Position numbers and translations under genes: made by a program | Assembly: GCA_020723385.1 (NCBI GenBank) | Contig: DYIZ01000061.1 | Coordinates: 1 to 32,676 of the forward strand | DNA from: Candidatus Aquidulcis sp. | GTDB lineage: Bacteria; Chloroflexota; Anaerolineae; Anaerolineales; UBA4823 | Reading direction: 5' to 3' | Length of the DNA stretch: 32,676 bases | Part shown: positions 4,279-27,400 of the stretch, piece by piece | Layout: every line of letters begins with the position of its first letter | How positions within the stretch are numbered: the stretch's first letter is position 1 | The notes under the pieces: generated by a model | Database searches by the model: none | What the model was told of the DNA's origin: nothing | What the model saw: only the letters and a program-made list of their open reading frames with translations

Positions 4279-4366
4279 CCGAAATTGACACCTCTCAAAG
4301 TGTCAGGTGTCACCCCGGAAACCGGACAAATTTCGTCTTTTATGTGACATCTATAAAGATTGCGTT

Positions 4367-7117
4367 ATGCCGCTGGCCCAGGGTCAAGTTCTGAATAACC
4401 GCTACCGTGTCGTCAAGCTGCTCGGGCAGGGTGGTTTTGGCGCAGTCTACCGCGCCTGGGATATGAATCTCAGCCGCCCGTGCGCGGTGAAGGAAAACCT
4501 GGACGCTTCCGCCGAAGCCCAGGCGCAGTTCAGCCGCGAGGCGCTGATCCTTGCCAATCTCAACCACCCCAACCTGGCGCGGGTGATAGATTATTTCTTT
4601 GTGCCCGGCCAGGGGCAGTATTTCGTGATGGATTTCGTCGAGGGGGAGGATTTGCAGGAGATGCTGGATGGGGCGGTTAGCGGTCAGCGATCAGCATTCA
4701 GTGGTCTTCCCGAGGAACAGGTTCTGCCCTGGATTTCTCAAATTTGCGATGCGCTCGATTACCTGCACTCGCAGAACCCGCCCATCATTCACCGGGACAT
4801 CAAACCCGCCAATATCAAGATCACCCCGCAAGGGAAGGCGATGCTGGTGGATTTCGGCATTGCCAAGATTTTCGACCCCAATTTGAAGACGACTGTGGGG
4901 GCGCGCGCCGTCACGCCTGGTTTCGCGCCCCCCGAGCAGTACGGCCAGGGCAAGACCGACAACCGCACCGATATTTACGCGCTGGGAGCGACGCTGTACA
5001 CCCTGCTCACCGGGCAAGTCCCTCCCGAAAGCGTGGAGATCATGTCGGGCAACGCCGCGCCGCCCCCGCCGGTCGCGGCGGCTAACCCGCGCATCTCGCG
5101 CACCGTGAGCGAGGCGGTGTCGAAGGCGATGGCCCTCAACCGGACGGAGCGCTTTCACCGGGTGAGTGAGCTGCGCGCGGCGCTTTCGGAGAGCGCCGCG
5201 CCGCCTCGGGAGCCGATGCCCCATGCGGCCCCGATCGCCATTCCCACCGAGATGACGCTCACCACCCCGGATGTCGCCGCGCCGCCAATCCCGGCCGCGC
5301 CGCCGCGGCCTTCATCCCCGCGGCGCGTACCGTCTGCACGCCGCGCGCTGCCGTGGGTCGGCATCTTTGGCGGGCTGGCAGCGCTCGTCCTGTGTGTGGG
5401 CGGCATTATTCTTTTATGGAGCATCTGGCCGCGGGCCGCCACGCCGACCGCCCTCCCACCCGCGCCGACCCGCACACCCACCCTTACCCCCACTCCCCTG
5501 ATACCAGGCGAAACGCCAACCGTCGTTCCACCAACACGCCCGCCGCTTCCCACCGACACTCTCCAGCCGTTCACCCATCTCTCGCTGGCCGCCGATTGCA
5601 GCTATGGCGGCGAGCTAAAATTCATCGAGACGTTGGACAACTTCACCGTGCGCTTTACGCTGTGTTACCCCGACTCGGCTTTCGCCGTCAAGATTGCGCT
5701 GCCGGTGTTTGCCATCCAGGATCGGGAGTATCTCGACCAGATGGGCGGCAGCTCGCAGCGGTTGAGCGAAGCGCCGAACGGCACCGGGCCATTCCGTTTC
5801 GGCGAATGGGTACGCGGCGATCACATCACCTTCGAGGCCAATCCCGATTATTGGGGAGCGCCGCCCGAGATCGGTACACTGGTATTCCAGTGGGAGGCGG
5901 ATAGCGCGGCGCGGTTGCTGGAAGTGCAGAGCGGCAACGCCCAGGCGATGGATAACCCGGCCCCAGACGATTATGCTGCCATAATCGGCGATACCAATCT
6001 CGGGCTGATCACCCGTCCGATCCTGAACATTGGCTACCTGGGCTTCAGCAACTTCCAGCCGCCGTTCGATAATGAGCTGGTGCGGCGGGCGGCGGCCATG
6101 GCGATTGACCGCGACTGGATGGTGAATAATTTCTATCCACCCGCCTCCACCGTGGCTGAACAGTTCGTACCGCCGGAAATCCAGCCGGGCTATACACAGG
6201 GCTTGCAATGGTATGCCTACGATCCCGATGCAGCCAAACAGTTGCTGGTCGAGGCCGGCTACCCGAATGGGTTTTCGACGACGCTGGTTTATCGCAACGT
6301 GGTGCGCAGCTATCTGGCTGACCCGGTCAGTGTCGCGCAATATATTCAGAAGCAGTTGGAAATGGTGGGTATTCAGGTCACACTGGTCGAGATGGATTCG
6401 GCGGCCTTCATAGAGGCTGCCAGCGCCGGCAGCCTGCCGATGTATCTCCTGGGTTGGGGCGCCGATTACGTAGACGCCTCGAATTTCTACGATTACCATT
6501 TTGCCAGCGAGGGCAACCAACAATATGGCAACCCTTATCCTGATCTGGTTGAGGTGATCCGCGCCGCCGGGATAGAGGCAGACCCAGGGAAACGTCAAGC
6601 TCTCTATGACGAGGTCAATGCGCTGATTATGGAACACGTCCCGATGGTGCCGCTGGCTCACGGGGGATCAGCGACCGTATGGGATGTGAATATCTCAGGG
6701 GCGCACGCCAGCCCGCTGGGGATGGAGCTGTTCGCGGGGATCAGCGTTCCGGGGCAGTCGTCGCTCACCTGGGTGCAGTCCTTCGAGCCGATGTCGCTGT
6801 GGTGCGCCGATGAGAGCGACGGAGATACCTTCCGCGCCTGCGCCCAGCTTTACGAACCTCTGGTCGCCTTTGGCGCCAGCGATACCACCCTGCACCCGGC
6901 GCTGGCCGAGCGGTGGGAGACGAGCAGCGATCTCCGGGTTTGGACGTTCCACCTGCGGCAGGGCGTGTACTTTCATAACGGCGCAGCCCTGGATTCTTCG
7001 GACGTGTTTGCCACATTCGAAGCTTTGTGGAATGCGGCCAGTCCCAACCATACGGGAAACTCGGGAGCTTTCGAGTATTTTCTGGCTTATTTTGGCGCGT
7101 TTCTAAACGGGCCATAG
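4367..7117 (+). CDS. Receptor Ser/Thr protein kinase with extracellular (circularly permuted) SBP_bac_5 sensor domain
   Basis: A 916-residue transmembrane Hanks-type kinase. The kinase domain (about 10-275) has all core residues: Gly-loop GQGGFG (20-25), VAIK-type Lys42, helix-C Glu58, HRDIKPAN (142-149) and DFG (162-164), followed by GFAPPEQYG. A Pro/Ala-rich stretch leads to one membrane helix (about 330-353), a PT linker, then from about 402 an oligopeptide-type solute-binding module of about 510 residues that would be extracytoplasmic. The module is homologous to the next gene's lipoprotein along its whole length and has the same permuted order, with the usual N-terminal segment at about 799-916. 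ATG 4367 is preferred over the GTG at 4307 because family members start a few residues before NNRYRVVKLLGQGGFG. A nine-residue insert (SGQRSAFSG) is encoded by repeat-like DNA. It probably senses peptide or sugar ligand; kinase substrates are unknown. Confidence 0.9.
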   Translation: MPLAQGQVLNNRYRVVKLLGQGGFGAVYRAWDMNLSRPCAVKENLDASAEAQAQFSREALILANLNHPNLARVIDYFFVPGQGQYFVMDFVEGEDLQEMLDGAVSGQRSAFSGLPEEQVLPWISQICDALDYLHSQNPPIIHRDIKPANIKITPQGKAMLVDFGIAKIFDPNLKTTVGARAVTPGFAPPEQYGQGKTDNRTDIYALGATLYTLLTGQVPPESVEIMSGNAAPPPPVAAANPRISRTVSEAVSKAMALNRTERFHRVSELRAALSESAAPPREPMPHAAPIAIPTEMTLTTPDVAAPPIPAAPPRPSSPRRVPSARRALPWVGIFGGLAALVLCVGGIILLWSIWPRAATPTALPPAPTRTPTLTPTPLIPGETPTVVPPTRPPLPTDTLQPFTHLSLAADCSYGGELKFIETLDNFTVRFTLCYPDSAFAVKIALPVFAIQDREYLDQMGGSSQRLSEAPNGTGPFRFGEWVRGDHITFEANPDYWGAPPEIGTLVFQWEADSAARLLEVQSGNAQAMDNPAPDDYAAIIGDTNLGLITRPILNIGYLGFSNFQPPFDNELVRRAAAMAIDRDWMVNNFYPPASTVAEQFVPPEIQPGYTQGLQWYAYDPDAAKQLLVEAGYPNGFSTTLVYRNVVRSYLADPVSVAQYIQKQLEMVGIQVTLVEMDSAAFIEAASAGSLPMYLLGWGADYVDASNFYDYHFASEGNQQYGNPYPDLVEVIRAAGIEADPGKRQALYDEVNALIMEHVPMVPLAHGGSATVWDVNISGAHASPLGMELFAGISVPGQSSLTWVQSFEPMSLWCADESDGDTFRACAQLYEPLVAFGASDTTLHPALAERWETSSDLRVWTFHLRQGVYFHNGAALDSSDVFATFEALWNAASPNHTGNSGAFEYFLAYFGAFLNGP
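4675..4707 (+). repeat. GGTCAGCGATCAGC-type short repeat in frame inside the kinase gene
   Basis: AGCGGTCAGCGATCAGC followed by ATTCAGTGG forms a degenerate direct repeat of (a/g)TCAGC units. It falls between the hinge strand and the helix preceding HRD, where kinases of this group usually go straight to LPEEQVLPW. It adds about nine residues without breaking the frame. Confidence 0.5.
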
Positions 7118-7125
7118 ACAACGCC

Positions 7126-7165
7126 ACAGCCCCCAGGAGTTTCCGAAACCCCCTGGGGGTCTGTT
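7126..7165. repeat. ACCCCAGGGGTTT palindrome, copy 1 (imperfect)
   Basis: ACAGCCCCCAGGAGTTTC followed by GAAACCCCCTGGGGGTCTGT. The arms pair except for one mismatch and one or two bulged bases. It lies 8 bases after the kinase stop codon. It belongs to the same element type as the copies at 12343-12374 (intergenic) and 13491-13524 (inside a gene). Confidence 0.7.
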
Positions 7166-7296
7166 GTCCTTCACATTTGGTCTCCCGCCTTCGGCGGGAA
7201 ATGTCCCGGATATGGGGTGTATGGGAGCGCGTGGCATTCCCATATACCCCAAATCTGGGGATTCCTCCCGTGGGAACGGGAGAGCCACATTTGGTT

Positions 7297-7442: not shown

Positions 7443-9107
7443 ATGAAACAAAAGTTGTTCGTTTTGCTGGCCCTGTTTGTCGTTGCCAGCATGGTGTTAG
7501 CAGCGTGCAAGCCTGCACCCGTCGTCGAAAAACCGCCCTACGATGAAGTCAAATTTGCCCCAATCAAAGTCGAAGCGCCTGACTGCGAATACGGCGGCGA
7601 ATTCAAGTCTATCGAAGCGGTGGACGAATCCACGGTGAAATTCACTCTGTGCTATCCTGACCCCGCCTTCCCGTCGAAGTTAGCCTTCTCCGTCTTTTCT
7701 ATCCAGGACACCGGCTACCTCAACTACTTCACCGGCGACTCGGTCAAGATGAGCGACAAACCGAATGGCACCGGCCCGTACTTTGTCAAGGAATGGGTGC
7801 GCGGCGATCATATCACCTACGAAGCCAACCCCAACTATTGGGGCGAGAAAGCCAAGATCAAGACCGTCATCTTCCGCTGGTCCGAGCAGTCGGCGCAGCG
7901 CTTGCTCGAGCTGCAATCGGGCACGGCTGACGGCATTGACAACCCCGCCCCCGAGGATTTCGCCGCCATCCAGGGCGACTCAAATCTGAAGCTGTATCCC
8001 CGCCCGGCGCTGAACATCTTCTACATCGGGTTCAATAACACCTACCCGCCTTTCGACAACGAGAAAGTACGCCAGGCCGTCGCGATGGGCATTGACCGGC
8101 AGCGCATCGTGGATCAATATTACCCCACGGGTTCGAGCGTCGCCGACAACTTCGTCCCGCCTCCTTTCAACCCTGGTTACAGCCCGAGCATCAAGTGGTA
8201 CGACTACAGCATCGACGAGGCCAAGAAACTCCTGGCCGAGGCTGGCTATCCGGATGGCTTCGAAGTGACGCTTTCCTTCCGCAATGTGGTGCGCGGTTAC
8301 TTGCCCACCCCCGATAAAGTGGCCCAGGAAATCCAGGCCCAATTGGCCGAGATCGGCATCACGGTCAAGATCGAAGAGATGGAATCGGCGACCTTCATTG
8401 ACGCCACCTCCGCCGGGCAGGAAGATCTGTACCTGCTGGGCTGGGGCGCTGACTACCCCGATGCCACCAACTTCTTCGATTATCACTTCGCCAATGATAA
8501 CAACAAGCAGTTCGGCACGCTTTTCCCCGACATCGTGACCGAGATCAAAGCCGCCGCATCCCTGTCTGACCCGGTGGCCCGCCAGCAGCACTACGACAAG
8601 GTCAACGAGCTGATCAAGCTGCACGTTCCGATGATCCCCGTGGCGCACGGCGGCTCGGCAACCGCCTTCAAGGCCAACGTCGAGGGCGCGCACTCCAGTC
8701 CATTGAGCAACGAAGTATTCTCTGTGATGAATAACGGCGCTGCTCAATTGGTGTGGATGCAGAACGGCGAACCCTCCTCCCTGTGGTGCTCAGACGAGAC
8801 CGACGGCGAGACCCTGCGCGCCTGCGAGCAGGTTTATGAAGCCCTGCTCTCCTACAAAGTCGGCGGCGTGGAAGTCCAGGCCGGCCTGGCCGAGAAGTGG
8901 GAACCGAATGCTGACCTCACTGAGTGGACCTTTACTCTCCGCAAGGGCGTCACCTTCCACAACGGCGTCGCCTTCGACGCCGGCGACGTGGTTTCCACCT
9001 TCGTCGCCCAGTGGGATGCCGCCAGCCCCAATCATGTGGGCCGCACGGCGACCTTCGAATACTTTGGGGCCTTCTTCGGATCGTTCTTGAACGCTCCAAA
9101 GCCGTAA
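7443..9107 (+). CDS. ABC transporter substrate-binding lipoprotein, SBP_bac_5 family, circularly permuted
   Basis: A 554-residue lipoprotein. The signal peptide ends in lipobox LAAC with the acylated Cys22, and GGAGGAG at 7430-7436 fixes the ATG at 7443. After a short linker the chain begins at CEYGGEFKSIEAVDESTVKF, which is normally an internal SBP_bac_5 position. It continues through NGTGPYFVKEWVRGDH, NPNYWG and the C-lobe to PMIPVAHGG (the usual end). It then adds, from about residue 434, the segment that normally opens the family: NGEPSSLWCSDETDGE, VYEALLSYK, LAEKWEPNADLTEW, TFTLRKGVTFHNGVAFDAGDV, ending FEYFGAFFGSF. That end reads naturally into the N-terminal CEYGGEFKSI, so the order is a circular permutation. 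It is followed by a terminator and two permease genes. Ligand is unknown, probably a peptide or oligosaccharide. Confidence 0.9.
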   Translation: MKQKLFVLLALFVVASMVLAACKPAPVVEKPPYDEVKFAPIKVEAPDCEYGGEFKSIEAVDESTVKFTLCYPDPAFPSKLAFSVFSIQDTGYLNYFTGDSVKMSDKPNGTGPYFVKEWVRGDHITYEANPNYWGEKAKIKTVIFRWSEQSAQRLLELQSGTADGIDNPAPEDFAAIQGDSNLKLYPRPALNIFYIGFNNTYPPFDNEKVRQAVAMGIDRQRIVDQYYPTGSSVADNFVPPPFNPGYSPSIKWYDYSIDEAKKLLAEAGYPDGFEVTLSFRNVVRGYLPTPDKVAQEIQAQLAEIGITVKIEEMESATFIDATSAGQEDLYLLGWGADYPDATNFFDYHFANDNNKQFGTLFPDIVTEIKAAASLSDPVARQQHYDKVNELIKLHVPMIPVAHGGSATAFKANVEGAHSSPLSNEVFSVMNNGAAQLVWMQNGEPSSLWCSDETDGETLRACEQVYEALLSYKVGGVEVQAGLAEKWEPNADLTEWTFTLRKGVTFHNGVAFDAGDVVSTFVAQWDAASPNHVGRTATFEYFGAFFGSFLNAPKP

Positions 9108-9124
9108 CCAACCTTTTCAACCAT

Positions 9125-9167
9125 GAGAGTTTGGCGGCGCAACCCGCCGCCAAACTCTCGATTTTTT
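9125..9167 (+). terminator. Rho-independent terminator between binding-protein and permease genes
   Basis: A perfect 14-bp stem (9125-9138 GAGAGTTTGGCGGC with 9146-9159), 7-base loop, then G-ATTTTTT. Lying inside the operon between the lipoprotein and the first permease, it would let the binding protein be made in excess, with partial read-through to the permeases. Confidence 0.85.
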
Positions 9168-9182
9168 ATCCATAGAGACGCC

Positions 9183-10259
9183 ATGCTACAATTCGTCACC
9201 CGCCGCTTGCTCTTGTTGCTGCCGGTTTTCATCGGCATCTTACTGGTTACATTCGTCATCGTCCGGTTGATCCCGGGCGACCCATGCAGCGTGATGCTGG
9301 GGGAGCGCGCCACGCCCGAGAAATGCGAGGCGTTCAAAGAGCGCTTTGGCCTGAACGACAACATCGTTGTGCAGATCGTCCGCTATATGGTCAACATCGC
9401 CCAGGGGGACTTTGGCACCTCGCTCCGCTTCGGGCGGCCGGTGGTGGATGTGATCGCCGAGCGGCTGCCGATGACGTTCGAACTGACCATTGGGGCGATG
9501 ATATTCTCGACAACCTTCGGCATCCTGTTGGGGTTGGTCTCTGCCTTGAAACGGAACACTGTGATAGACGTGACGACGATGATCGGGGCGAATATCGGCA
9601 TCTCGATGCCGGTCTTCTGGCTGGGGTTGATGTTGGCCTACGTGTTTGCGCTGGTGTTCAAGGATACTTTCTTGTACATTCCCCCCTCGGGACGCCTGAC
9701 CTCCGGGATTTCTCTCCCCTCGCTGGCGACGCTGTGGGGACTCTCCGATCTGCAGGGGCTGCCCAAATTCCTGCTCGGTCTGGTCTCCAACTCGACCATC
9801 CTCAACAGCCTGCTCACCGCCAATTTCCTCATGCTGCGCGACGCCCTGTGGCATCTGATCCTGCCCTCGCTGGCGGTCGGCACGATCCCGCTGGCAGTCA
9901 TCGCCCGCATGACGCGCTCCAGCCTGCTGGACATCCTCGGGCAGGATTACATCCGCACGGCACGCGCCAAGGGACTCATCGAGCGGTTGGTGATTGCCCG
10001 CCACGCCATGCGCAACGCCTGGATCCCCATCGTGACCATCATCGGGTTGGAGACGGGCCAGCTATTGGCCGGGGCGGTGCTCACCGAGACGGTGTTTGCC
10101 CTGCCGGGGGTGGGCACGGCGCTCAAAGACGCCATCCTGGCGCGCGATTACCCGGTCGTCCAGGGCCTGACGGTGGTCATTGCGATTACATTTGTGGTGG
10201 CGAACCTGCTGGTGGATATTTCTTACGCCTACCTCGACCCCCGCATCCGCCTGGAGTAG
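9183..10259 (+). CDS. ABC transporter permease, DppB/OppB-like
   Basis: A 358-residue inner-membrane permease of the dipeptide/oligopeptide type. The N-terminus (MLQFVTRRLLLLLPVFIGILLVTFVIVRLIPGDP) is the typical first helix and PGDP motif of DppB. The EAA loop is near the C-terminal third (DYIRTARAKGL), and the protein ends with LDPRIRLE, as is usual. It contains a longer loop with GRLTSGISLPSLATLWG. ATG 9183 aligns with the family start; an upstream in-frame ATG at 9123 would start inside the terminator hairpin. The ribosome binding site is weak, consistent with low expression relative to the binding protein. The next permease begins 3 bases after its stop. Confidence 0.9.
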   Translation: MLQFVTRRLLLLLPVFIGILLVTFVIVRLIPGDPCSVMLGERATPEKCEAFKERFGLNDNIVVQIVRYMVNIAQGDFGTSLRFGRPVVDVIAERLPMTFELTIGAMIFSTTFGILLGLVSALKRNTVIDVTTMIGANIGISMPVFWLGLMLAYVFALVFKDTFLYIPPSGRLTSGISLPSLATLWGLSDLQGLPKFLLGLVSNSTILNSLLTANFLMLRDALWHLILPSLAVGTIPLAVIARMTRSSLLDILGQDYIRTARAKGLIERLVIARHAMRNAWIPIVTIIGLETGQLLAGAVLTETVFALPGVGTALKDAILARDYPVVQGLTVVIAITFVVANLLVDISYAYLDPRIRLE

Positions 10260-10262
10260 CTC

Positions 10263-11195
10263 ATGGAAAACGCCATCCCCAAACTCTCTGCAGAAGCTAT
10301 CCCCGAGCGCCGATCCCCCACGGTCGAAACCATCCGGCGGTTGTTCCGGCATCGTTCGGCCCAGGTGGGCATGATTTTGCTGGCCTTTATGATCTTGATC
10401 GCCATTTTTGCGCCCGTGATCGCGCCCTACGACCCGGTCGCCATTTTGAAAGAGGAAACTCGCCGCTCTGCGCCGTGTATTCACCTGCTCGGCTGCCCGC
10501 AGGAACAGACGCAGCACCTGATGGGTATTGACGGCAACAGCCGCGATCTGTTTTCCCGCGTCATCTACGGCTCACGGCTGTCGCTCCAGATTGGGTTCGT
10601 GACGATCACTTTTGCTATCATCATCGGCGGCATCATCGGCGCGCTGGCCGGTTTCATCGGCGGCTGGTTGGACAATATTTTGATGCGCTTGATGGATGTG
10701 CTGCTGGCCTTCCCCAGCCTGCTGCTGGCGATTGCGATTGTGGCGGTGCTCGGCCCTGGGCTAAGAAACGCCCTGCTGGCGATCGGTATTGTCTCCATCC
10801 CGATCTATGCCCGTATTGTACGAGCCAGCGTGCTTTCGGTGAAGGAGCTGGATTTCGTCTCGGCCTCGCGGGCGCTGGGCGCGTCGAAACTGCAACTGCT
10901 GTTGACCAAAGTGATGCCCAACGCGCTCACCCCGTTGATCGTGCGCGGCACACTGGGCATCGCTACAGCTATTTTGGATGCGGCTGGCCTTTCGTTCCTC
11001 GGCCTGGGCGCTGAAAAGCCTATCCCCGAATGGGGGCTGATGCTCGGCGAGGAGCGTAACAGCATCTTCAACGCCCCGCACCTGGTTTTCTTCCCCGGCC
11101 TGGCGATCATGATCCTGGTGCTGTCGTTCAATCTGCTCGGCGACGGGCTGCGCGACGCCCTCGATCCCCGGCTGGCGCAGAACCGTTCGAAATAA
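10263..11195 (+). CDS. ABC transporter permease, DppC/OppC-like
   Basis: A 310-residue permease. A soluble N-terminus is followed by the first helix (GMILLAFMILIAIFAPVIAPYDP), the DppC landmark LMGIDGNSRDLFSRVIYGSR, several helices, the EAA loop (DFVSASRALGAS) and the C-terminal GLSFLGLGAEKPIPEWG plus GDGLRDALDPR. It pairs with the preceding DppB-like protein to form the channel. No ATP-binding subunits follow in the window, so the transporter must use ATPases encoded elsewhere or a shared pair. Transcription probably ends in the inverted repeat after the gene. Confidence 0.9.
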   Translation: MENAIPKLSAEAIPERRSPTVETIRRLFRHRSAQVGMILLAFMILIAIFAPVIAPYDPVAILKEETRRSAPCIHLLGCPQEQTQHLMGIDGNSRDLFSRVIYGSRLSLQIGFVTITFAIIIGGIIGALAGFIGGWLDNILMRLMDVLLAFPSLLLAIAIVAVLGPGLRNALLAIGIVSIPIYARIVRASVLSVKELDFVSASRALGASKLQLLLTKVMPNALTPLIVRGTLGIATAILDAAGLSFLGLGAEKPIPEWGLMLGEERNSIFNAPHLVFFPGLAIMILVLSFNLLGDGLRDALDPRLAQNRSK

Positions 11196-13026: not shown

Positions 13027-13300
13027 TCGGCGCAATTCTTGGGCTTTATTGGTGGGTCTTTTACAGGTAGCAGAAATTCTAAGCGCAGACGATTAACACA
13101 ACGAAATACCCAATCCCCGCATCTTGCCGCTGTTCGCATCGCCGCCACTGAGATTATTTGGGGAAACGCCCTGGTTGCAAGGGCTCAGTGACTTCTTTTC
13201 GCAGAAGCCTCAGGCAAGGCTATTAGCCTCTGCTGGTTGATTGCAATGCGTTCCATATTCTCATCCATTTTCATCACTTCGGACTGATAGGAGTAAAACG

Positions 13301-16282
13301 ATGGCTATCACCAGACGCCGAATTCACGCACGTATTTCGCTAGCGCTCATTGTAGCAATCATGGTCAGCGCCATAACCCCGCCGCAGGCCCAAATGGGCG
13401 TCTCGGCAGCGGAAGCCGCTCATTCGACCTGGTTATTAGATGTTGTCGAGACGGCCGAGTTCCTGCCTTCGCCGGCTGTCTCGCTCGCACAGACCCCAGG
13501 GGTTTTCCAAAACCCCTGGGGTCTATTGTCTGCCGAGAGTAAACCGGCGTTCGCGGATGAGACGCCGCCGCTGTCCGTCTCGCGCGTACAGTCAGCGTAC
13601 ACGCCCGGCGGGGTTTTCTCCGGTACGCTGGTGGTCACGTACACCGTCGCCAACAACCAGCTTCCGGCAGCAATTCCCAGTCTCTCCGGCGCGGCCACGC
13701 TGACGGACACTGTCGCCATCTTGCAAGCGATGGATACGCCGGGCGACGCCAACACGCTGCGAAACGTGCTGCTGGCCGATACGCTGACAGGCGGGGCAGT
13801 ATTTGCGTCGTCGTCGCTTGCTCCTGACCGCAACCCCTCGCCCGGCGGGGACGAATTGGCCTGGAACCTGGGCGACATCCCGCCGATGAAGAGCATCACG
13901 GTGACGATGGCGATCACGGTTCCGGCCTCCATTGCCGGGGTCACCGCGCTCGACGGCGGCGCGACCGCCTGGGGGACGCGGCAATCCCAGGTGGTCAACG
14001 CCAGCGCCTGCCCGGTCACGTTGACGCCCGACACCCTGAGCGGCGAGCCGATGGCGGATTATCTGAGATCTGCCGTAGATGCCGATCCGTCCGACGAATA
14101 TGTGTCCCGCTTTGCGGGATCGTTGTGTACGCCCAACCAGGCCTTCGAGGCGGTGCGGACGCTTGGCTACGAGGCCTACCGCGGCTCGCTGCGCGGGGCC
14201 AGGGGCACGCTGTGGAGCCAGGCTGGCAACAGCCTGGACAAGTCCAGCCTGCTGATCGCCACCTTACGAGCCAACGGCACGCCCGCCCGCTACCAGCACG
14301 GCACGCTCAGCGACGAGCGGGCGCGCGAGCTAATCCTTTCGATGTTCCCGACCACCGGCGGCGTGGTGGGCTACGTCCCGGAGGGGGCCACGGTCTCCGA
14401 CCCGGCGAATGACCCTGACCTGCTGGCGGAAGCGCGCGATCACTGGTGGGTGGAAGCCTACCAGAACGGCCAATGGGTGGCGATGGACCCTTCGTTCTCG
14501 TATGCCGCCCCCGGTGCGACGTTTACAACCCCCGGGGGTGCGCCCCTCGCCGAGCCGCCGAACGACCTGCGGCACACGGTCACCTTCCGTCTCGAAATCG
14601 AACGCTATCAAATCCTGAATTACCTGATGTCAGGCTTCGAGTACCAGACCACGCTAGTCTTCACGATGACGACCGCCGAGCTGGTGGGTCAGCCGGTGAC
14701 GGTCAAGCACCTGGTCAGCACGCAGTACCCGCCGGCTGGCTGCCTGATTTATTGTTGGGTGCATTACTCGTACGTGCCTTACCTGCAAATCGGCGACGGG
14801 ATCGCGCCGCCGCTCGGCTCGCCGCCCGGCAGCGTGCTCCCGTCGGAAGAGAATGGGGGATCAGGGGGCTGGGTGATCCTGGGACACCCGTACTTCGAGC
14901 TGCTCTCGAATTATCCGCTGGGGCAGTTTGCCGTGACCGGCGAGTGGCTGCACCTCGACGTTCGTGACGCCGAAGGCAACCTGCGCACCTACACGCGCAC
15001 GCTGGCCGACCGGGTGGGCATCGAGCAGCGCGAAAGCCCCAACAAAATCCAGGGCCTGATCCCCGAGCTGACCACCGAGGAGGTGATCTCGCGCTTCGGC
15101 CCGCAGGCGCCGCCCACCGCCACGTCGCTCGACAACGTCAGCGTGTACTTCAACCCGTCGTGGATGTCGGCGGAATACGCGGCGCACGTGGGCGAGAACC
15201 TGCTGGCGGCCGCGCCGCGCGTGCTGGCGATCCAGCCGGTGATCTCGGGGCTGGCGGACATCGAGCGCATTTTCAGCGGCGAGCGCCCCGACGTAAGCGG
15301 GCGCATCCAACTGGCCGAGGCGGCGGAGGTTGTGGAGGACACCACCCAGGCCTTCAACCGGATGATGGGAGCGTCGTTCGTGACGATGTCGGACGCGGCT
15401 TCGCAAGACCTGGCGCAGACCGGGCTGGTGAAGGTGTATCCCGACGCGCCGCGCATCACCATCGCCTCGTTCGTGATTGCGCAGCCTTTCGAGTACCCGC
15501 AGGTGATCACGCAGTCCATACCGACAGAGTCCATTGACCTGCTCTCGGACGGCGTGCGGGCAATTGCCTACCCCGGCCAGGCGAAGAGGGCCGAGCCGGT
15601 CTACCGGCTGACGCGGGGGATGAACGAGGCGTTTTTGGAGAAGATGATCGGGGATTACTTCATCAAAGCCGGCGAGCCGGAGGATGGCGAAACCGCCGTG
15701 GTGGTGAAATCTGCGGCAGGTGTGCTGCAAGCCGCCGGGGCGCAGAACATCCCGCTGATCTACGTGGACGAGGATCACCTGCAGCCCCTGGCGCAGGCGG
15801 CGATCTCCGAGGAGGCCAAGGCGCGCATCGTGCAGACGGTCAAGGGCGGCGGGTATGGGGTGCTTGTGCCGAAGCGGATGGCGACGTACAACGGGGAGGC
15901 GGCCATCGCCTGGTGGCAGGTGGATCTGCGGACGGGGGAGACGGTGGGGGTGGGGGAAGAAGGGATGCACCAGTTTTTGGTGCAGTTGCCGTTCGAGATG
16001 GAGTTTTTCTTTCAGACAGCCAATTTCCTGGATTTAGCACTCTCGACATTCATATCCTATCTTCGCCATTATGTCTGGGAACAAACTGCGATAGTAACCT
16101 GGAAAGAATTCTGGTATGCAGCTACTCTGTTGAGAAGACGGCCTGGGGAAACCAATCTCGTGTTCTACCAACGAGTATTGAAGGAAACGAAAACCTATAT
16201 GAATACAATTGTATGGGGTCAATTAAAAGAAGATTGGGAAGAAATATTTGGCGACGAGATACCCGTTGATATTATTCGGTGA
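13301..16282 (+). CDS. Secreted transglutaminase-like protein with Ser replacing the catalytic Cys
   Basis: A 993-residue exported protein. ATG 13301 has AGGAG 8-12 bases upstream and begins a signal peptide (RRR, then SLALIVAIMVSAI). A transglutaminase-like core lies at about 275-400: GNSLDKSSLLIATLRANGTPARY, H381 in DHWWVEAY and D396 in MDPSF. The position usually taken by Cys is Ser311, so the His and Asp are kept but thiol chemistry is lost. The middle part (RPDVSGRIQLAEAAE, ITIASFVIAQPF) resembles proteins that accompany RHS or long surface proteins. A palindromic repeat is read in frame as QTPGVFQNPWGLL (residues about 64-76). From about 16,000 the DNA drops from about 73% to 35-43% GC (hand-counted lines) and the last 90 residues differ in character. 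Confidence 0.8.
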   Translation: MAITRRRIHARISLALIVAIMVSAITPPQAQMGVSAAEAAHSTWLLDVVETAEFLPSPAVSLAQTPGVFQNPWGLLSAESKPAFADETPPLSVSRVQSAYTPGGVFSGTLVVTYTVANNQLPAAIPSLSGAATLTDTVAILQAMDTPGDANTLRNVLLADTLTGGAVFASSSLAPDRNPSPGGDELAWNLGDIPPMKSITVTMAITVPASIAGVTALDGGATAWGTRQSQVVNASACPVTLTPDTLSGEPMADYLRSAVDADPSDEYVSRFAGSLCTPNQAFEAVRTLGYEAYRGSLRGARGTLWSQAGNSLDKSSLLIATLRANGTPARYQHGTLSDERARELILSMFPTTGGVVGYVPEGATVSDPANDPDLLAEARDHWWVEAYQNGQWVAMDPSFSYAAPGATFTTPGGAPLAEPPNDLRHTVTFRLEIERYQILNYLMSGFEYQTTLVFTMTTAELVGQPVTVKHLVSTQYPPAGCLIYCWVHYSYVPYLQIGDGIAPPLGSPPGSVLPSEENGGSGGWVILGHPYFELLSNYPLGQFAVTGEWLHLDVRDAEGNLRTYTRTLADRVGIEQRESPNKIQGLIPELTTEEVISRFGPQAPPTATSLDNVSVYFNPSWMSAEYAAHVGENLLAAAPRVLAIQPVISGLADIERIFSGERPDVSGRIQLAEAAEVVEDTTQAFNRMMGASFVTMSDAASQDLAQTGLVKVYPDAPRITIASFVIAQPFEYPQVITQSIPTESIDLLSDGVRAIAYPGQAKRAEPVYRLTRGMNEAFLEKMIGDYFIKAGEPEDGETAVVVKSAAGVLQAAGAQNIPLIYVDEDHLQPLAQAAISEEAKARIVQTVKGGGYGVLVPKRMATYNGEAAIAWWQVDLRTGETVGVGEEGMHQFLVQLPFEMEFFFQTANFLDLALSTFISYLRHYVWEQTAIVTWKEFWYAATLLRRRPGETNLVFYQRVLKETKTYMNTIVWGQLKEDWEEIFGDEIPVDIIR
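13491..13524. repeat. ACCCCAGGGGTTT palindrome, copy 3 (perfect, inside a coding region)
   Basis: AGACCCCAGGGGTTTT (13491-13506), CC, and the exact reverse complement (13509-13524): a 16-bp stem in frame near the N-terminus of the transglutaminase-like protein. Bases on both sides resemble those around copy 2 (CGCCGG-TGTCT before it, TCTATTG after it), which shows shared origin rather than chance. Confidence 0.85.
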
Positions 16283-18450: not shown

Positions 18451-21400
18451 ATGAGAAAACCGTCAGCCTATTGGATATTTATTGCTACGCTCATACTTCT
18501 ATTTCTGGCAGCAGTCAGCCCTATAACAGCCTATGCGAATGAGCTATCAACCGGCAGCCTGCAAGACGGGGATACGCCAACGCCAACAATTACGCTCCCC
18601 GATCCTTTTTTGTATTCTCCTTATGTCGGATCGGCTGAAATTATTTCTGTATTCGATCATGATTGCCCTCTAGGGAAAAGTGAAAGTGATCCAGGTTATG
18701 ATTGCGACACAACGACGGTGTTTCATAATGACGGGTATATTATTAACAAAAATTATTCTGGTCACATGGGAATTGACTATGGCCTGGCCTATAAACCGAT
18801 TCTGGCTGCGGCTGCTGGGACCGTCACATACGTGGGATGGGACGATCCAGATCATCACGAGGGCGATGCAGGCATGGGGTTGAAGATCACGATTCAACAC
18901 CTAGACAATTCTTACACAGGCCCCGGACCCGGGGCAGGCTCTGCCTACTATACACTCTATGGCCATATGAGCTCGGTTTCCGTGAAAACAGGGGATGAAG
19001 TACAAGTACATACCCCTTTGGGTATCAGTGGGCAAAAGGGGTATGGCAATAGTCTGCACCTGCATTTCCAGGTGATGGCTGGTTTAGCTTATGACGGCGC
19101 AGTTAATCCTTATGGGTGGAAAGGACCGGATGGCGAAGACCTATGGAAGAATCACCGCATAAGTTACGATCTTTGGGTCGCATATCCTTCTGTCATAAAT
19201 CCCGAAGTATATCCGCCTGGCAACAAACCAGTGGAGGAATATGATGATTGGCGCCAGGAAGCTAACTTATTCCCAGACCCCAATAATCTGAACAGCCTTA
19301 CAGTCCAACCGGACGAACCTAACCATTGTCCAAGTGTTTGGATACAAAAAGAGGCTGGCTCCTTGGTCTATTACACAGCCGAGGTCAAAAGGGATAATAA
19401 TCGAGAGCATGATCTCCCTACAACAACTACTTGTCAGATTCAATGGTCTATGGACAATGTGGTGGACCATAATGGGCAGACTCACCACCCTGAAGGTGTC
19501 TACGATGTTTACGCTCGGATTCCACCACAAGAATCAGGCTATACATGGAGCGACAGCGCCTGTTATGAAGTCGCTCCAAACAGTCAATATCATTCTATAG
19601 TAGTTCAAAGTGAGGCTTTCGAAGAATACGGGAGTCAGTACCCGCGTGGGGGAGATGGTAATATCTGGATGTATATGGGTACCTTCCAGTTTTCTACTGA
19701 CGATCAGGCGATCAAATTGGGAGACGGCACAAAAGATGATAACAATGTTGACCGGCTAGTTGTGGCGTCGCAACTGCTATTTATGCCATCCAATGATGCC
19801 TCTGTGTCCCCGAGTACACCCGTGCCGCCCACCAGCACACCAACACCGGAACCAGTCACACTGATCGATTCTGAGCTTGATGATACACCACCAGTGGATA
19901 TTGCAAATCAACATCAGTCATTTTTATTATTAGATGGCGCGCCGGAACCCCAAAATGGAGATGGGAATCATCCCTATTACTTAAATTTTAATCCCTACAT
20001 CAACAATGTGGATGGGGTTTATTTTCGCCGGGATCCAGAGTCTCCTCACGAATTCGATTTGGGTCGAACGGAATGGGATTCTCTAACTGTAGAGCTTTGG
20101 TTCCGTGCGGACACTCTTAACATTGTATCGGGGGAACAGGCAAGAACACTAGTTAATTATTCCAAAGCAACCAGCATAACAAGCTACAAAGGGTGGGAAG
20201 TAACTTACAATCGGGATACCAAAACTCTAGCTTTTAGCATCCTCAATGGGCAAAAAGATCAACCTGTCGCTCAAGTGACTCAGGTGGGAATTCCAGTTGG
20301 CAAATGGGTACATGTGTATGCCATCAAATCTAGCGCACATGGTGAACTGTTCCTTTGCTCACAAGAGGAGGGAAATGCGCCGATATTACGCAGCGGGGAT
20401 CCAGTAAATGGCATCCTCTACTATTCCACCGCGTTGGATATAAACCTGGGGTTTGAATACGAAGTACCTCCGCCAGGTGTAATCCGTGAGCAAAGCTGGT
20501 ATGGTGATTTGGATCACTTTTCTTACAAGAATTACGCGGATTTTGGCGTGTGTGACGGTTTTGTTCCATCAACATCAACACCAACACCGACCTATACTCC
20601 GACGAAAACCCCTGTTCCGTCAATCACGCCTACGCCTACGCAAACTATGATACCACCAACACCTAAACCCCCGGCCAGAGTCGTATACATGTCCATGAAT
20701 GAAGATGGGAGGCCTCAATATATAAATCAGGATGGTCAATCATTGGATATTTCCACCTATGATGAACCTATCGTTACGCCAGGAATTGATGGTAGCAACG
20801 GCCGCCAGTTTGCCTTGGATACCAATAATCGTTACCGTATTGACAAGATTGAAATAGGGAATTCGACGGATTTCCAATTGGGTGATCAACATAATTATTC
20901 GTTCACAATTGATCTATGGTTCAGATATGATGCATTGTTCGAAGATAATAATGGTGGTTGTGAATATCGGGAAGATTACGTTGGTGTGGATTGTTTTTCA
21001 TCTCTAGACAAAACGATTGCGAGTCTTGTGGGTCAACATGTGGAAGGAGAATCGTCATCCCTACGTGGTTGGTTTCTAAACTATACGCCAGCCAGAGAAT
21101 TTGGGTACTTGACCTTTGGAGTTTACAATCAATATGGTGGCCTGACCAGTGTACCTCTTGGTGAAATTGCTGCGAAGAAATGGTACCATGTCAAAGCGAT
21201 AAAAGATGGGAATGCGGGTTGGTTGGCGCTTTGCGTTATGCAACAAGCCGACACCAGTGGAGCTATTCCAACTTCAACGGCAATCCCGGATTGGCGCGTC
21301 GAAAACGTGTCTTATCAGGGAAGCGTCAGTTATGAGCCAGGTAGTTTTTTGCGCCTCGGGGCATCTCGAGGCTATGTTTACCATACCCAAAGTTGGCACG

Positions 21401-24400
21401 GCCAGCTAGACGAATTCACCTACCTCAACTACGCCGATTACGGTGGCTGCGCCAGCGTTCTGCCCACTGCAACCCCCACCAAAACTTTGACGCCGACGAC
21501 TACTCCCACATCACAATATTCTCCAACGCCAACACCAACCGCAACAATCCCCCCCGCCCCGATTGGAGAATGTTCAGCGGACACCTATTACCCCTACGGT
21601 TTCGACAAGGGCATTGCTTGTGGGATTCAAATGATCCGCGACTCCTTGATACGGGATGGGTTGATTGATCCGAAAGATCCATTTGGCGACCCTCCCCTCC
21701 CCGCCATGCTCTTCACCGGCGGACAATCCCCCCTCCCCTCCGGCAGCGACTCATCCATTGTCCCCGTCGCCGCCGACCACGCTGCCGCGCCCATCGTTGC
21801 CACGCTGACCACCACCTATACCGTTCTCACGGGCGACCTGACGGCATCCTGGGTCAACGCGACCTGGGCCGCCGCCGAGTTCGAGACCCTCTCCGTTTCC
21901 TGGGCGCAGGTGTACGACGAAAACAACCTCCTCATCGCCGAGGGGCCGATTAGCGCCGCTCCACTCCCCTCTCCCAGCGGGGGAGGGGCCGGGGGTGAGG
22001 GAGAATCTGCTTTCGCCCTGGCGTTGGGCGATCCCCTCACCTACACCGTCACCGGCGCCGACTCGGCCACCTTCTACGCCCCCGCATCCAACGGCCTGGG
22101 CGCAGGCGGCGATTGGACGAGCTACACCGCCCAAATCGAATCTGGCCAAACCTTCGGCGTAGGCTTGCAAAACGCCATCGTCACCGTCAACGGCCAAACC
22201 TACACCGGCGCTCTAACCCTTGTCACCCTGTCACCTGTCACCCTATCAGGCTCCGGTCACACCCTCCTCCCCAACTTCGCCGGACAGGTCTCCATCCAGG
22301 CCAGCGACGCGTCCCTCCTCATCGGCCCCTCCACCTTCCTCACCGGCACGCTTCCGGCCCAATCTCCCCTATCCTCTATCCCTTCTCCCCTGTCTTTCTC
22401 CGGCTTCGACGGCTCGCTGCACATCGCCGAAGATTCCGCCGATACGGACCGCCTCGAGCTATCCGGCGCGGCCGACCGCGACCTGTCCCTCTCGCTCGAC
22501 CCGGCAGCCAGCGCCATCACGCCCTTCGAGAGCGCCAGCTTCCAGGCTGAAATCCACACCAACCAGAGCGGCGATTACACCCTCGCCGCCATCCCGCCTC
22601 TCGGCTGGCAGGCGCAGGTGGACGAGACCGGTCATGTTACCATCCTCCCCGCCCTCGACGCCGCCCCCGGCGAGTACACCGTGCTCGTCACCGCTCAGTC
22701 TACCAACTACCAGTCTACCAATTTACTGGCCTCCGCCCTCCACACCATCACCATCATCCCCTTCCAGGGCATGGAATTCTCCGTCGCCCCCGACCCGCTG
22801 ACCACCGTCCCATGGGGTTCCCCTCTCCCAGGATTGGGAGAGGGGGCAGGGGGTGAGGGAAGCATCAACACCGGCGTCACCCAAATCCCCGGCGCGGCGT
22901 ACATCGCCGTCATCACCAACACATCCACTGTCGCGCACACCTTCGGCGTGCAGGTTGCGCCGGACGGCTTCCCGGCTGAGTGGATCATGATCGGCGGGGC
23001 GGGGCGCACCACGGTGACCAACATTACGTTATTGCCAGGTCACGTCGGTCGCCTGGGAATCTATCTCCAACCACCTTGCAACCTGCCACCTGCAACTTGC
23101 AACCTCCCCGCCGCCGGGACTGAGTATCCCTTCATCGTCACCGCGGCCGCCAACGACGAGCCGTCGCTGAATCAATCGGCGGCGGAAGTGTTCGTCATGC
23201 CGGCGGCGCCTTTCGCCTACCTGCAAGCCAGTCCCGATTGGGTGGTCGCGACCAACGGCGTCAGCGCCACCTTCGAGATCAGCCTGACCAACGTGGGCAA
23301 CGCGGCGGGCGATTTCCCCGTGCGGATTCTACCGCCTACCGGTTGGGAAGCTGGCACAGCCTATACAGTCACACTCCCTGCCGGGGATGCCGACACCCAC
23401 TCGATGACTTTCACCCCCGTGGGCGCGGCGCCCGGCGATGAAGAGACCGTCTACGCCGAGAGCCAGCCGCCGGGCAGCCCATACCGGCTGTCCGACAGCG
23501 TGCGGGTGCGTATCGTCGGGCCGTGCGTGTACGCCGCTTTCCAGGCCATGCGCGCCTCGGTCCCGTTGGACGATGTTTTCCTGACGGCTTCGCTGGACAA
23601 CCTGGCGGTGCAGTTGGACCGCTGGGAGCGGGACAGCGACAACGCCGAGATGCGCGAGCGCGCCATCGCCGCGCTGAACGACACGCTTGCCTACCTGCGC
23701 GCCAGCTATCCCGGGGTGGATACCGCCTCCCTGGAGACGCTGGCGGCCGCGCCGACCGTCGAGGGGTTCTGCAGCCCGCTGGAGGATCTCGACCCGCAGT
23801 TGGACGACCTGGTGAAATACCGCCTCGCTGTCCGTTTCATCCCCGGCGCGGCAGCCACACTCGTCGGCGAGACAGTGACATATACCCTGCAAGTCGAAAA
23901 CCAGGGCGATTCTGCTGCGACTTACCTGATCGCCGTCAATGCCTGGCCCACCGACGGCTTACGTTTTACGCCTTACGTTTTACAGACCACATTATCACCG
24001 GGCGAAGCGATCACCTCCACCATCCCCGTCACCCCCACCGCGCTCGGCGCTTACACCCTCGAAGCGGATGTGACCATCGTTGGCAGGGATGATCTTCCCG
24101 GCGCACAGGCGACCGCCGCGCTGAAGGCGGTGGATCGCCTGATCCAGGTTATTTCGGTGGATGCTGTTCCCGGTTTCGTCGAGGTTGGGCCGAACAGCGC
24201 AGATTTATTCGCGCTCGTCGCCAACGTGGCCGGAATCTACCAGGAGGGATTGGCCGAAGTGGGCATCCTCGCGCCTTCCGGCGAGATGGTTTATAGCGGG
24301 ACAGTCTCGGTCGCGCTGGCATCTGCGCTGGATCTGCAAAGCCTGTCCCTGGGGAATGTCCCCACGGCAGGCTGGGCCGAGGGGGTTTACACCATCACAT

Positions 24401-27400
24401 TGAGCATCACCGACCCGGCGGGGAGACCGATCCCCAACGGCGAGGGTTTCGGCCACCTGTCGGTGGGCGTCGGCGTGAACGCCAGCGCCGCCGTCTGGCC
24501 GGAGATCGTCGTTCCCGGCACGGTGACGGTGACGACTTACATCACCGCCGAGCGCACCGCGGACGTGGGGGCAGGCCATCCCGATGGATTGAACAATGTC
24601 TACACGTTCTACCTGCCCGATGACGATGTACCTGGTCGTGATGGCGGTTTCTACATCGTGGGGCTGCGGCCAAGCACACTTTATGATATCCAACGATTCG
24701 ACGCCGCCAGCCAGGCATGGACGCAAGCGCTGACGGACACTGTTGTGATGGATGATATCAAACTGTATATTGCCAGTTTCCCGGTGGGCAATATTTACCG
24801 TGTCTACGCATCGGAGCCGATCTTGCTGGTCGTCACCTCCGCCGAAGGGTCGTTGGTCTCCGCCGCCACGCCGGATCTTAAATTCAAAGGGCAGCACTTC
24901 GTCTTCTTGGGCGATTACAACAATGTATTGAGTTGGACGCGCACCACAATCTTTGCTTTGGATGCCAGTACGACGATCAGCGTCGAACTTAAGACGCCCG
25001 GCGGGGAGTGGAGCGCGCCTGAAAAGATGACGCTGCAAGCTGGGGCCTACTGGTATTACCAGAAAGATACCAACGGCACGCAAATCGTGCGGGTTACCTC
25101 GGACAAGGATGTGATCGTTTACCGGAACAGCGGCGACAACGATGAGCTGGATACGGCCATGAGCGACAACGGCACCCCTTACGGCAAGGTTTTTTACTTT
25201 GCCCCGGTGCCGCGTGCTTACCCTGTTGCATTCGTTCTCTCCAACACCGAACCGGCGACAGCCAACGTTACGATATATGGGATAGACAATCCCGCCAATC
25301 CGGTCTTGATCTGGCAGGGAGTGATCTCCCCTTACGGCGCATGGGCGGTCAATGCAGAATTCAGAGCCAGTTATTTCAAAATCGTTTCTGACCGCACTTT
25401 GAGCGTCATCGGTGGAGGCGTATTCGGCGGGCAAGTGTCGCCGGGCAACGCTTCCATGGATGCGATTTGGGAAATTCTAAACAAACCGCAAGGCAGTTTC
25501 TATGTTTACCAGACCAATCTGCTCTACTCACGCGGCTTGGGGTTGATCTCAGAATACAACGAGTTCGAAGCGGATTTCTTGCAAGGAACAGTTATCTCAA
25601 CCTCCATTCCATTGATTGACAAGACTACAAACAACCTGTGGTTTGGAAATGCCATCAACTACCTGTCCAGCGTCCCGGTCACACTCACGTTGGAGGTCGC
25701 TGCGTTCCCGATACCCGATAGCGGTTACCGCTACGAAGAAAACCAGGGCTTCTACTACACACCGGCCTGGGGCCGGCCTGGAAACGGGCGCGCAAGCCTG
25801 GGATATACGGCCAGCTCGGCAGCCGCCGGTGCGAATGCGCATCTCACCTTCGATGGAACCTGGGCCAGCGTCGGCTTTTTGACCGGGCCGGGCAATGGTA
25901 AAGCTCAGGTTTTCATAGATGGGGAGCTTCGGGACATTGTAGATACCTACAGCCGCTATGAAGATGTGACCAGTCTTTTCTACTCGGATTTGATCACCGG
26001 CACTCACACCATCTCGATTACCGTGATGGGCAGCCACAACCCCAATTCTGCCAATAATTGGGTGTATCTGGATTATGTGGATGTCTGGAACGGCGCGGAT
26101 ATGCCCGAAGGCTCCTTCGAGGAGAACGACCCACGCGCGATCTCCAGCGGCAATTGGTCAACGTACAGCAGCGCAGTCGCCAGCGGCGGCAAATACTACC
26201 GGAGCGGCAATAATATCTGGTTCTCCTTCACCGGCGAGTCGGTCACTTACCAGGCGCTGGCAGGCAATTGGGCCGGGCAAGTGGAGATTATGATAGACGG
26301 GATCAGCCAGGGTTATTTCGACCTGTACAATCCCACCGAGCAGGTGCGCGCTTTCTCTTTTGGCAATCTCTCTCCCGGCCCGCACACCTTGCTGGTCAAG
26401 GCTTATCGCGGCAATGCAGTCGTAGATGCCTTTATCACGCCGGGCATCCCGCCTTTCTACGAGCCGCCTGACCGTAGCGGCGTTATCCGCCTCGAGGAAG
26501 ACGATCCTGCTCTGCGTTATAATGGCGTTCCCTTCCGCCAGACGGCCCAATCCTGGCTGATCGATTCCAACGACCGCCTCAGCGGCCGGTACGGGGCGCG
26601 ATCGGCCACCGCCGATGATACCGTCAGCCTGACCTTCCACGGGCCGTGGATCGGCCTGGGTTTTCTCACCGCAACCTGGAGCGGTCAAGCGGAGGTTGCC
26701 ATTGATGGCGAAAGCCAGGGGGTGATAGACACTTACGGCCGTTATGAGGATGTTACCAGTTTCTACTTCACCGGGCTGGACCCCATCACCCATACGCTTA
26801 CGCTCAAAGTTTTGGGGACGCATAATGCCAATTCCAGCGGAAACTGGATTTATCTGGATTATGTGGATGCCTGGAATGGGGCCGACATGCCTCAAGGCAT
26901 TTTCCAGGAAAACGATGGGCGCGTGGCCCGCAGCGGCGGCTGGCTCCCGGAAAACTCGGCCGCAGCCAGCGGGGGCAGCTACTACCGGTTCGGCTACAAC
27001 GCCTGGTTTTTCTTCACCGGCGAGTCGGTCACTTACCAGGCATTATCTGCCAACTGGGCTGGGCAGGTGAATATCCTGATAGATGGGGTCAGCCAGGGTT
27101 ATTTCGATCTGTACAGCCCCACCGAAACGACCCGCTCCCTGTCTTTTGGCAATCTGGCCCCAGGGCCGCACGTTCTGCAGGTACGCGCCTATCGAGGGAT
27201 CGTGACTGTAGACGCGGTCGCGGCCCCCGGCGCGCCGCCTTTCTACCAGCCCCCGGCGCAGACCGGCATCGTCCGTTACGAGGAAGATGATCCTGCTCTT
27301 CGTTATAACGGCGTTTCTTTCCGTCAAACCACCAATACCTGGAATTTGGACAACAACGACCGCGCCAGCCGCCGGTACTACGCCTGGTCGCGCACTGCCG

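Follow-up and report, generated by a model that had tools for sequence, protein, structure and literature searches.

A predicted receptor Ser/Thr kinase carrying a circularly permuted DppA-type module akin to the binding protein of the adjacent transporter

Results

The kinase gene and its surroundings

The window analysed here, by which we mean the whole stretch of 32,676 nucleotides, contains a receptor kinase gene followed by genes for a lipoprotein and two permeases. The features are as follows.

4367–7117, plus strand: receptor kinase gene; frame open from GTG 4307, likely start ATG 4367
4403–5029, plus strand: Ser/Thr kinase domain (Pfam Pkinase, ORF residues 33–241, E = 3e-40)
5357–5413, plus strand: single transmembrane helix (residues 351–369; hydropathy scan)
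5414–5587, plus strand: Pro/Thr-rich linker of about 58 residues, read from the sequence; site of sensor change among paralogues
5588–7114, plus strand: circularly permuted SBP_bac_5 (DppA-type) module, putatively extracellular (residues 428–936)
7115–7260, plus strand: three strong RNA hairpins in the kinase–lipoprotein gap (fold −80.9 kcal/mol, z = −7.35)
7443–9107, plus strand: lipoprotein with the same permuted SBP_bac_5 module (ATG 7443 after GGAGGAG; lipobox LAAC)
9124–9160, plus strand: terminator-like hairpin in the lipoprotein–dppB gap (16-pair stem and T run)
9183–10259, plus strand: DppB-type permease (Pfam BPD_transp_1; ORF open from 9123)
10263–11195, plus strand: DppC-type permease (Pfam BPD_transp_1 and OppC_N)

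The frame of the kinase gene is open over 936 codons (4307–7117), with the stop ending at 7117, and the ATG at 4367 lies within it; the coordinates 4367–7117 given for the gene in the initial annotation are correct. Within the kinase domain the glycine loop (GQGGFGAV), the VAIK-type lysine (AVK) and the HRD (HRDIKPAN) and DFG motifs are all intact. By domain and motifs the protein belongs to the Hanks-type Ser/Thr kinases, and phosphorylation activity is predicted. The transmembrane helix is the only hydrophobic segment of the protein and lies between the kinase and the outer domain, with the basic segment RRVPSARR directly on its N-terminal side. The kinase is likely to be located inside the cell and the C-terminal half outside.

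No ATPase gene is present beside the lipoprotein and dppBC genes; the DppD-type homologues of this genome are encoded elsewhere, on contigs C172 and C173. The gap between the kinase and lipoprotein genes measures 325 bases, of which the hairpins fill the first 146. The strong hairpins and the size of this gap count against a simple kinase–lipoprotein operon, and the two genes may be transcribed separately. The terminator-like hairpin upstream of dppB would fit production of the binding protein in excess over the permeases.

Elsewhere in the window, all on the plus strand, positions 3–1495 hold an ATPase and DUF4276 pair (best defence-library matches HEC-01A and HEC-01B; the upstream end of the ATPase may exceed the window), positions 13241–16282 encode a 1013-residue protein with a transglutaminase core, and positions 18451–31815 form a giant, putatively secreted ORF of 4454 residues, the start of which resembles an M23-type peptidase by eye.

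Circular permutation of the outer module

The match in the kinase ORF to SBP_bac_5, the family of cluster C solute-binding proteins, comprises residues 436–737 and a second stretch (Pfam, E = 1.5e-85). Comparison with the DppA structures 1dpp and 1dpe using phmmer reveals the order of its two parts.

5624–6748, plus strand: part of the module corresponding to native DppA residues 127–506 (module residues 13–387)
6818–7087, plus strand: part corresponding to native DppA residues 21–116 (module residues 411–499), relocated to the C-terminus

The two parts are swapped relative to DppA: the circular permutation is real, and its cut point lies close to residue 120 of the native protein. The lipoprotein has the same permuted order relative to its relatives. 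An alignment of kinase residues 428–936 with lipoprotein residues 50–557 spans 509 columns, contains one gap and shows 57% identity (617 bits, well above any chance similarity). It bears out the collinearity of the two proteins, permuted order included, that the initial annotation had proposed. The WC-DE-DG segment and the C-terminal ends FLNGP (kinase) and FLNAP (lipoprotein), also remarked upon there, are indeed common to both. The former characterises the permuted family as a whole: in an alignment of 18 sequences its C, D, E, D and G columns do not vary.

Both modules yield confident models (pLDDT 92.7 for the kinase module and 93.0 for the lipoprotein). In a structure search the kinase-module model matches GbpA and DppA with Z of about 32 and an r.m.s.d. 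of 1.8–2.4 Å; about 382 residues are superposed, reaching as far as the native C-terminus. The search aligns in sequence order only, and the relocated C-terminal part (model residues 395–513) is identified by sequence. The closest solved relatives of the module in this search are dipeptide and glutathione binders.

The ligand pocket

In structures of DppA the two ends of the bound dipeptide are held by Arg355 and Asp408. These are the residues that appear in precursor numbering in the title of PDB entry 8z1z (DppA R383D+D436R). Their equivalents in the kinase were located by alignment.

6305–6307, plus strand: codon of Arg667, equivalent to DppA Arg355 (Arg in 112 of 112 permuted modules)
6464–6466, plus strand: codon of Asp720, equivalent to DppA Asp408 (Asp in 112 of 112 permuted modules)

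The initial annotation had named loss of the pocket residues in the kinase module as a refutation of its reading; the sequence alignment finds both Arg667 and Asp720 in place. The module thus carries the DppA-type Arg/Asp pair, and dipeptide binding itself is predicted. The module further keeps 77 of the 79 near-invariant columns, the two departures being Leu to Val and Pro to Ala, and has no large insertion or deletion. Sequence and model together support an intact, putatively binding-competent sensor.

The end branch of the kinase module in the tree is long, 0.89 against 0.22 for the lipoprotein, and could reflect a changed ligand. The same branch length would suit an outer module that has no part in sensing and persists as a structural or decoy remnant, but the retention of nearly all near-invariant columns and of both pocket charges, the absence of large indels and the confident model of the module make this reading very improbable. 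A decayed sensor in particular is ruled out by the conserved columns.

The fold also has relatives, among them MppA and DppE, that bind murein peptides, and PASTA kinases offer a precedent for wall sensing. The module might accordingly bind murein or other wall peptides, so that the kinase would fulfil the role of a PASTA kinase using a different domain. We regard this as quite unlikely: the closest solved relatives bind dipeptides and glutathione, the sister module serves a transporter and nothing points directly to the wall.

Age and distribution of the permuted family

Collinear permuted modules occur in 179 of 400 genomes of the order (E up to 1e-100), nearly all of them in frames of stand-alone length. 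At the level of the class a match is found in 180 of 396 genomes at E values up to 1e-60, the weakest of which may be binding proteins of native order. Three candidates were scored per genome in these large searches. Named records with the permuted module include ones from Anaerolineae, Thermoflexus, Ardenticatenia and Caldilineales, and the module is also present in Acidimicrobiales and Ilumatobacter, which belong to the Actinomycetota. We inspected the best 80 of 460 named loci. In 68 of them the sequence extends 2.5 kb or more downstream, and 59 of these 68 permuted-lipoprotein loci have dppB and dppC in this stretch on the same strand.

In the tree the kinase module nests among stand-alone permuted lipoproteins in a clade of 19 rows (100/99). 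Because such lipoproteins are spread through the phylum and the kinase module lies among them, the analysis supports a permutation that is old and that predates the fusion to the kinase, in line with the order of events put forward in the initial annotation. The kinase module and the neighbouring lipoprotein do not form a sister pair in the best tree, yet this pairing is not rejected (p-AU = 0.256), and we do not claim firmly that the neighbour underwent a recent tandem duplication.

The permuted module is often the last domain of longer proteins, where it follows SBP_bac_3, Peripla_BP_6, SBP_bac_1 or a CxxCH segment together with SBP_bac_3. Examples of the last kind are single lipoproteins at L125 1933–4638, L128 1993–4791 and L103 1643–4408 (all plus strand), which combine a cytochrome-c-like CxxCH segment, SBP_bac_3 and the permuted module and are followed by dppBC. 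A lipoprotein of about 1,340 residues (L108 5269–9279, plus strand) consists of two Peripla_BP_6 copies and the permuted module, and L100 3267–7286 (minus strand) has the same size. A long frame in G050, initially read as a kinase fusion, turned out to be SBP_bac_1 followed by the permuted module.

The module is also found joined to other cytosolic parts through a transmembrane helix. A protein with caspase, HEAT and FHA domains (L113 1427–4669, plus strand, G522:C1393) has one transmembrane helix and the same permuted module outside; no DppBC-type genes are present near it in the stretch read. A third layout of cytosolic part, transmembrane helix and permuted module is seen at L111 2198–4498 (plus strand, G546:C266), where the cytosolic part belongs to no assigned family and the helix spans residues 181–199. 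In the tree these two modules group together, though not with strong support, and separately from the kinase module.

A family of kinases with exchanged sensors

Searching the same genome with the kinase, transmembrane and linker half yields 17 other matches at E < 1e-90, eight of which are on contig C138, and the matches end in the linker. Six of the 17 paralogues carry other ABC-type binding proteins, as judged from Pfam or phmmer matches and reading: SBP_bac_1 or SBP_bac_8 in three cases, and Bmp, Peripla_BP_6 and SBP_bac_5. Further outer modules are WD40, FGE and SH3. In total the genome encodes about eight receptor kinases of the SBP type with several classes of binding protein. In the kinase tree the window kinase, two WD40 kinases and one SBP_bac_1 kinase form a single starred clade of four; given this mixture, kinases that share the chassis have exchanged their outer modules. 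The window kinase belongs to a family of receptor kinases whose sensors are exchangeable.

One paralogue (G000:C202, L157 1755–5363, minus strand) has an SBP_bac_5 sensor that is permuted at a different cut point, with query residues 20–242 matching 7fi3 residues 330–570 and query residues 408–679 matching 7fi3 residues 38–304. Two differently permuted SBP_bac_5 sensors are therefore present within one genome. A Peripla_BP_4 receptor kinase (G000:C69, L167 625–2932, minus strand) has a frame break in its kinase domain and is either an assembly error or a pseudogene. In the same taxonomic family, kinases with a native-order SBP_bac_5 occur twice in G020 and once each in G028 and G031, a cut one is found in G013, and G031 also has a Peripla_BP_6 kinase.

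We tentatively suggest that in some Chloroflexota a kinase, transmembrane and linker chassis serves as a general platform that adopts whole transporter binding proteins of many classes through exchange in the linker, and that has done so at least once beside a transporter with a homologous binding protein. Permuted binding proteins may suit such a platform, as their new N-terminus can be tethered, and the modules joined to the caspase–FHA protein and to the other cytosolic protein are of this same permuted kind.

No second kinase fused to this permuted module was found among the matches listed in about 1,500 genome look-ups, of which the large searches scored three candidates per genome so that rare cases could escape, and the kinase fusion is likewise absent from the best 80 of the 460 named loci. 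A fusion found once, in an assembly of 239 contigs, could come from two genes misjoined in a metagenome-derived contig. Such an artefact is highly improbable, as the frame is open throughout, the kinase half comes from a family abundant in this genome and the outer half from the family of the neighbouring gene, and the joint falls in the linker, where paralogues change their sensor.

Relationship to the transporter

The initial annotation viewed kinase, binding protein and permeases as one unit for sensing and uptake. Adjacency and the kinship of the two modules agree with this, but it does not extend to a general rule: no dppBC-type genes lie near the other SBP-kinases examined in this genome and its relatives (searched for DppB, DppC and the DppD-type ATPase and read by eye; a sugar-type permease could escape), and strong hairpins occupy the gap in the window. 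Kinases with SBP_bac_5, which it proposed to look for, do occur in native order in G020, G028 and G031, but none of them has dppBC-type neighbours. A conserved kinase–transporter neighbourhood in several lineages is not found, the arrangement being seen only in the window and no fused kinase being present in the best 80 of the 460 named loci.

As the modules are akin and the genes adjacent, the sensor and the DppBC transporter probably have the same or a related ligand. The adjacency also raises the idea of a transport-coupled sensor, in which the tethered module additionally docks on DppBC and delivers substrate while the kinase responds to the traffic through the transporter and not to the ligand as such. 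The module has kept the whole binding protein, including the rest of its near-invariant surface, and permuted proteins of this family normally serve dppBC, as in the 59 named loci above. Still, docking cannot be the general mode for the other examined SBP-kinases, which have no dppBC-type permease nearby, and we consider transport coupling unlikely.

Proposed mechanism

We favour, as fairly probable, a one-protein receptor kinase that arose by sensor exchange and in which a permuted DppA-type sensor for a peptide-like ligand switches a Ser/Thr kinase. The outer module would close upon binding a short peptide, or a comparable molecule whose amino and carboxyl ends are free. Capture of the ligand would then alter the clustering of receptors or their contacts outside the membrane, and the cytosolic kinase would be switched by trans-autophosphorylation and go on to phosphorylate its targets. 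As for its origin, a kinase gene of the large in-genome family would have acquired its outer half through a joint in the linker, the new partner being a permuted module of the type used by the DppBC transporter next to it. Signalling by a rigid piston is unlikely because the linker of about 58 residues is flexible. We infer the topology, the ligand class, activation by clustering and the sharing of a ligand with the transporter, and the steps beyond binding competence are put forward in the same conditional sense.

To our knowledge, ligands have been identified for only a minority of bacterial receptor Ser/Thr kinases. For the window kinase, the sensor's fold and pocket and the transporter encoded beside it allow a guess at the class of ligand. 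The genome also encodes closely related kinases that carry other binding proteins, which opens the way to direct tests of ligand-controlled Ser/Thr phosphorylation and to sensor swaps between paralogues. The family also raises the question of what makes permuted binding proteins so common in the phylum.

Comparison with known systems

PASTA and propeller kinases (PknB and PknD) share with the window kinase the arrangement of kinase, one transmembrane helix and extracellular sensor and differ in the type of sensor; the WD40 paralogues in this genome are the counterpart of the propeller-sensor kinases. E. coli DppA and Haemophilus GbpA share the fold of the kinase module, and the likeness to DppA extends to the pocket Arg and Asp. 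Unlike both, the window module is circularly permuted and fused through a transmembrane helix to a kinase. A natural circularly permuted and tethered binding protein, MglB-2 of Treponema pallidum, has been proposed to act in transport and sensing (PMC4990184), but it is of the sugar-binding type, with a different fold class and cut point, and has no kinase.

In Mycobacterium and Corynebacterium, GlnH–GlnX–PknG places a Ser/Thr kinase under the control of a binding protein that responds to an outside nutrient (PMC6069109). This system consists of three proteins, a lipoprotein, the membrane protein GlnX and a soluble kinase, whereas the window kinase is a single chain. Single-chain examples have been known since 2005, when Ser/Thr kinases with a binding protein outside were described in Streptomyces coelicolor (Glu/Gln-type) and Nostoc (ANF receptor) (PMC1262709); actinomycete proteins that combine SBP_bac_3 and Pkinase have also been listed (PMC13293324). 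The initial annotation had called a full oligopeptide-binding module much less familiar than PASTA or propeller sensors; kinases with binding-protein sensors as such were already on record. In a literature search confined largely to papers outside subscription journals, nothing closer was found on SBP_bac_5 kinases or on SBP receptor kinases of Chloroflexota. The window kinase shares with the Streptomyces, Nostoc and actinomycete proteins the combination of a Ser/Thr kinase and an ABC-type solute-binding domain in one chain, and differs from them in that its sensor is of the SBP_bac_5 class, is permuted, is akin to the binding protein of the adjacent transporter and belongs to a set of SBP-kinases of several classes. 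As far as searchable papers show, the new features are the class of binding protein, its permutation, its kinship with the protein that serves the transporter next to it, and the wide range of sensors found within a single genome.
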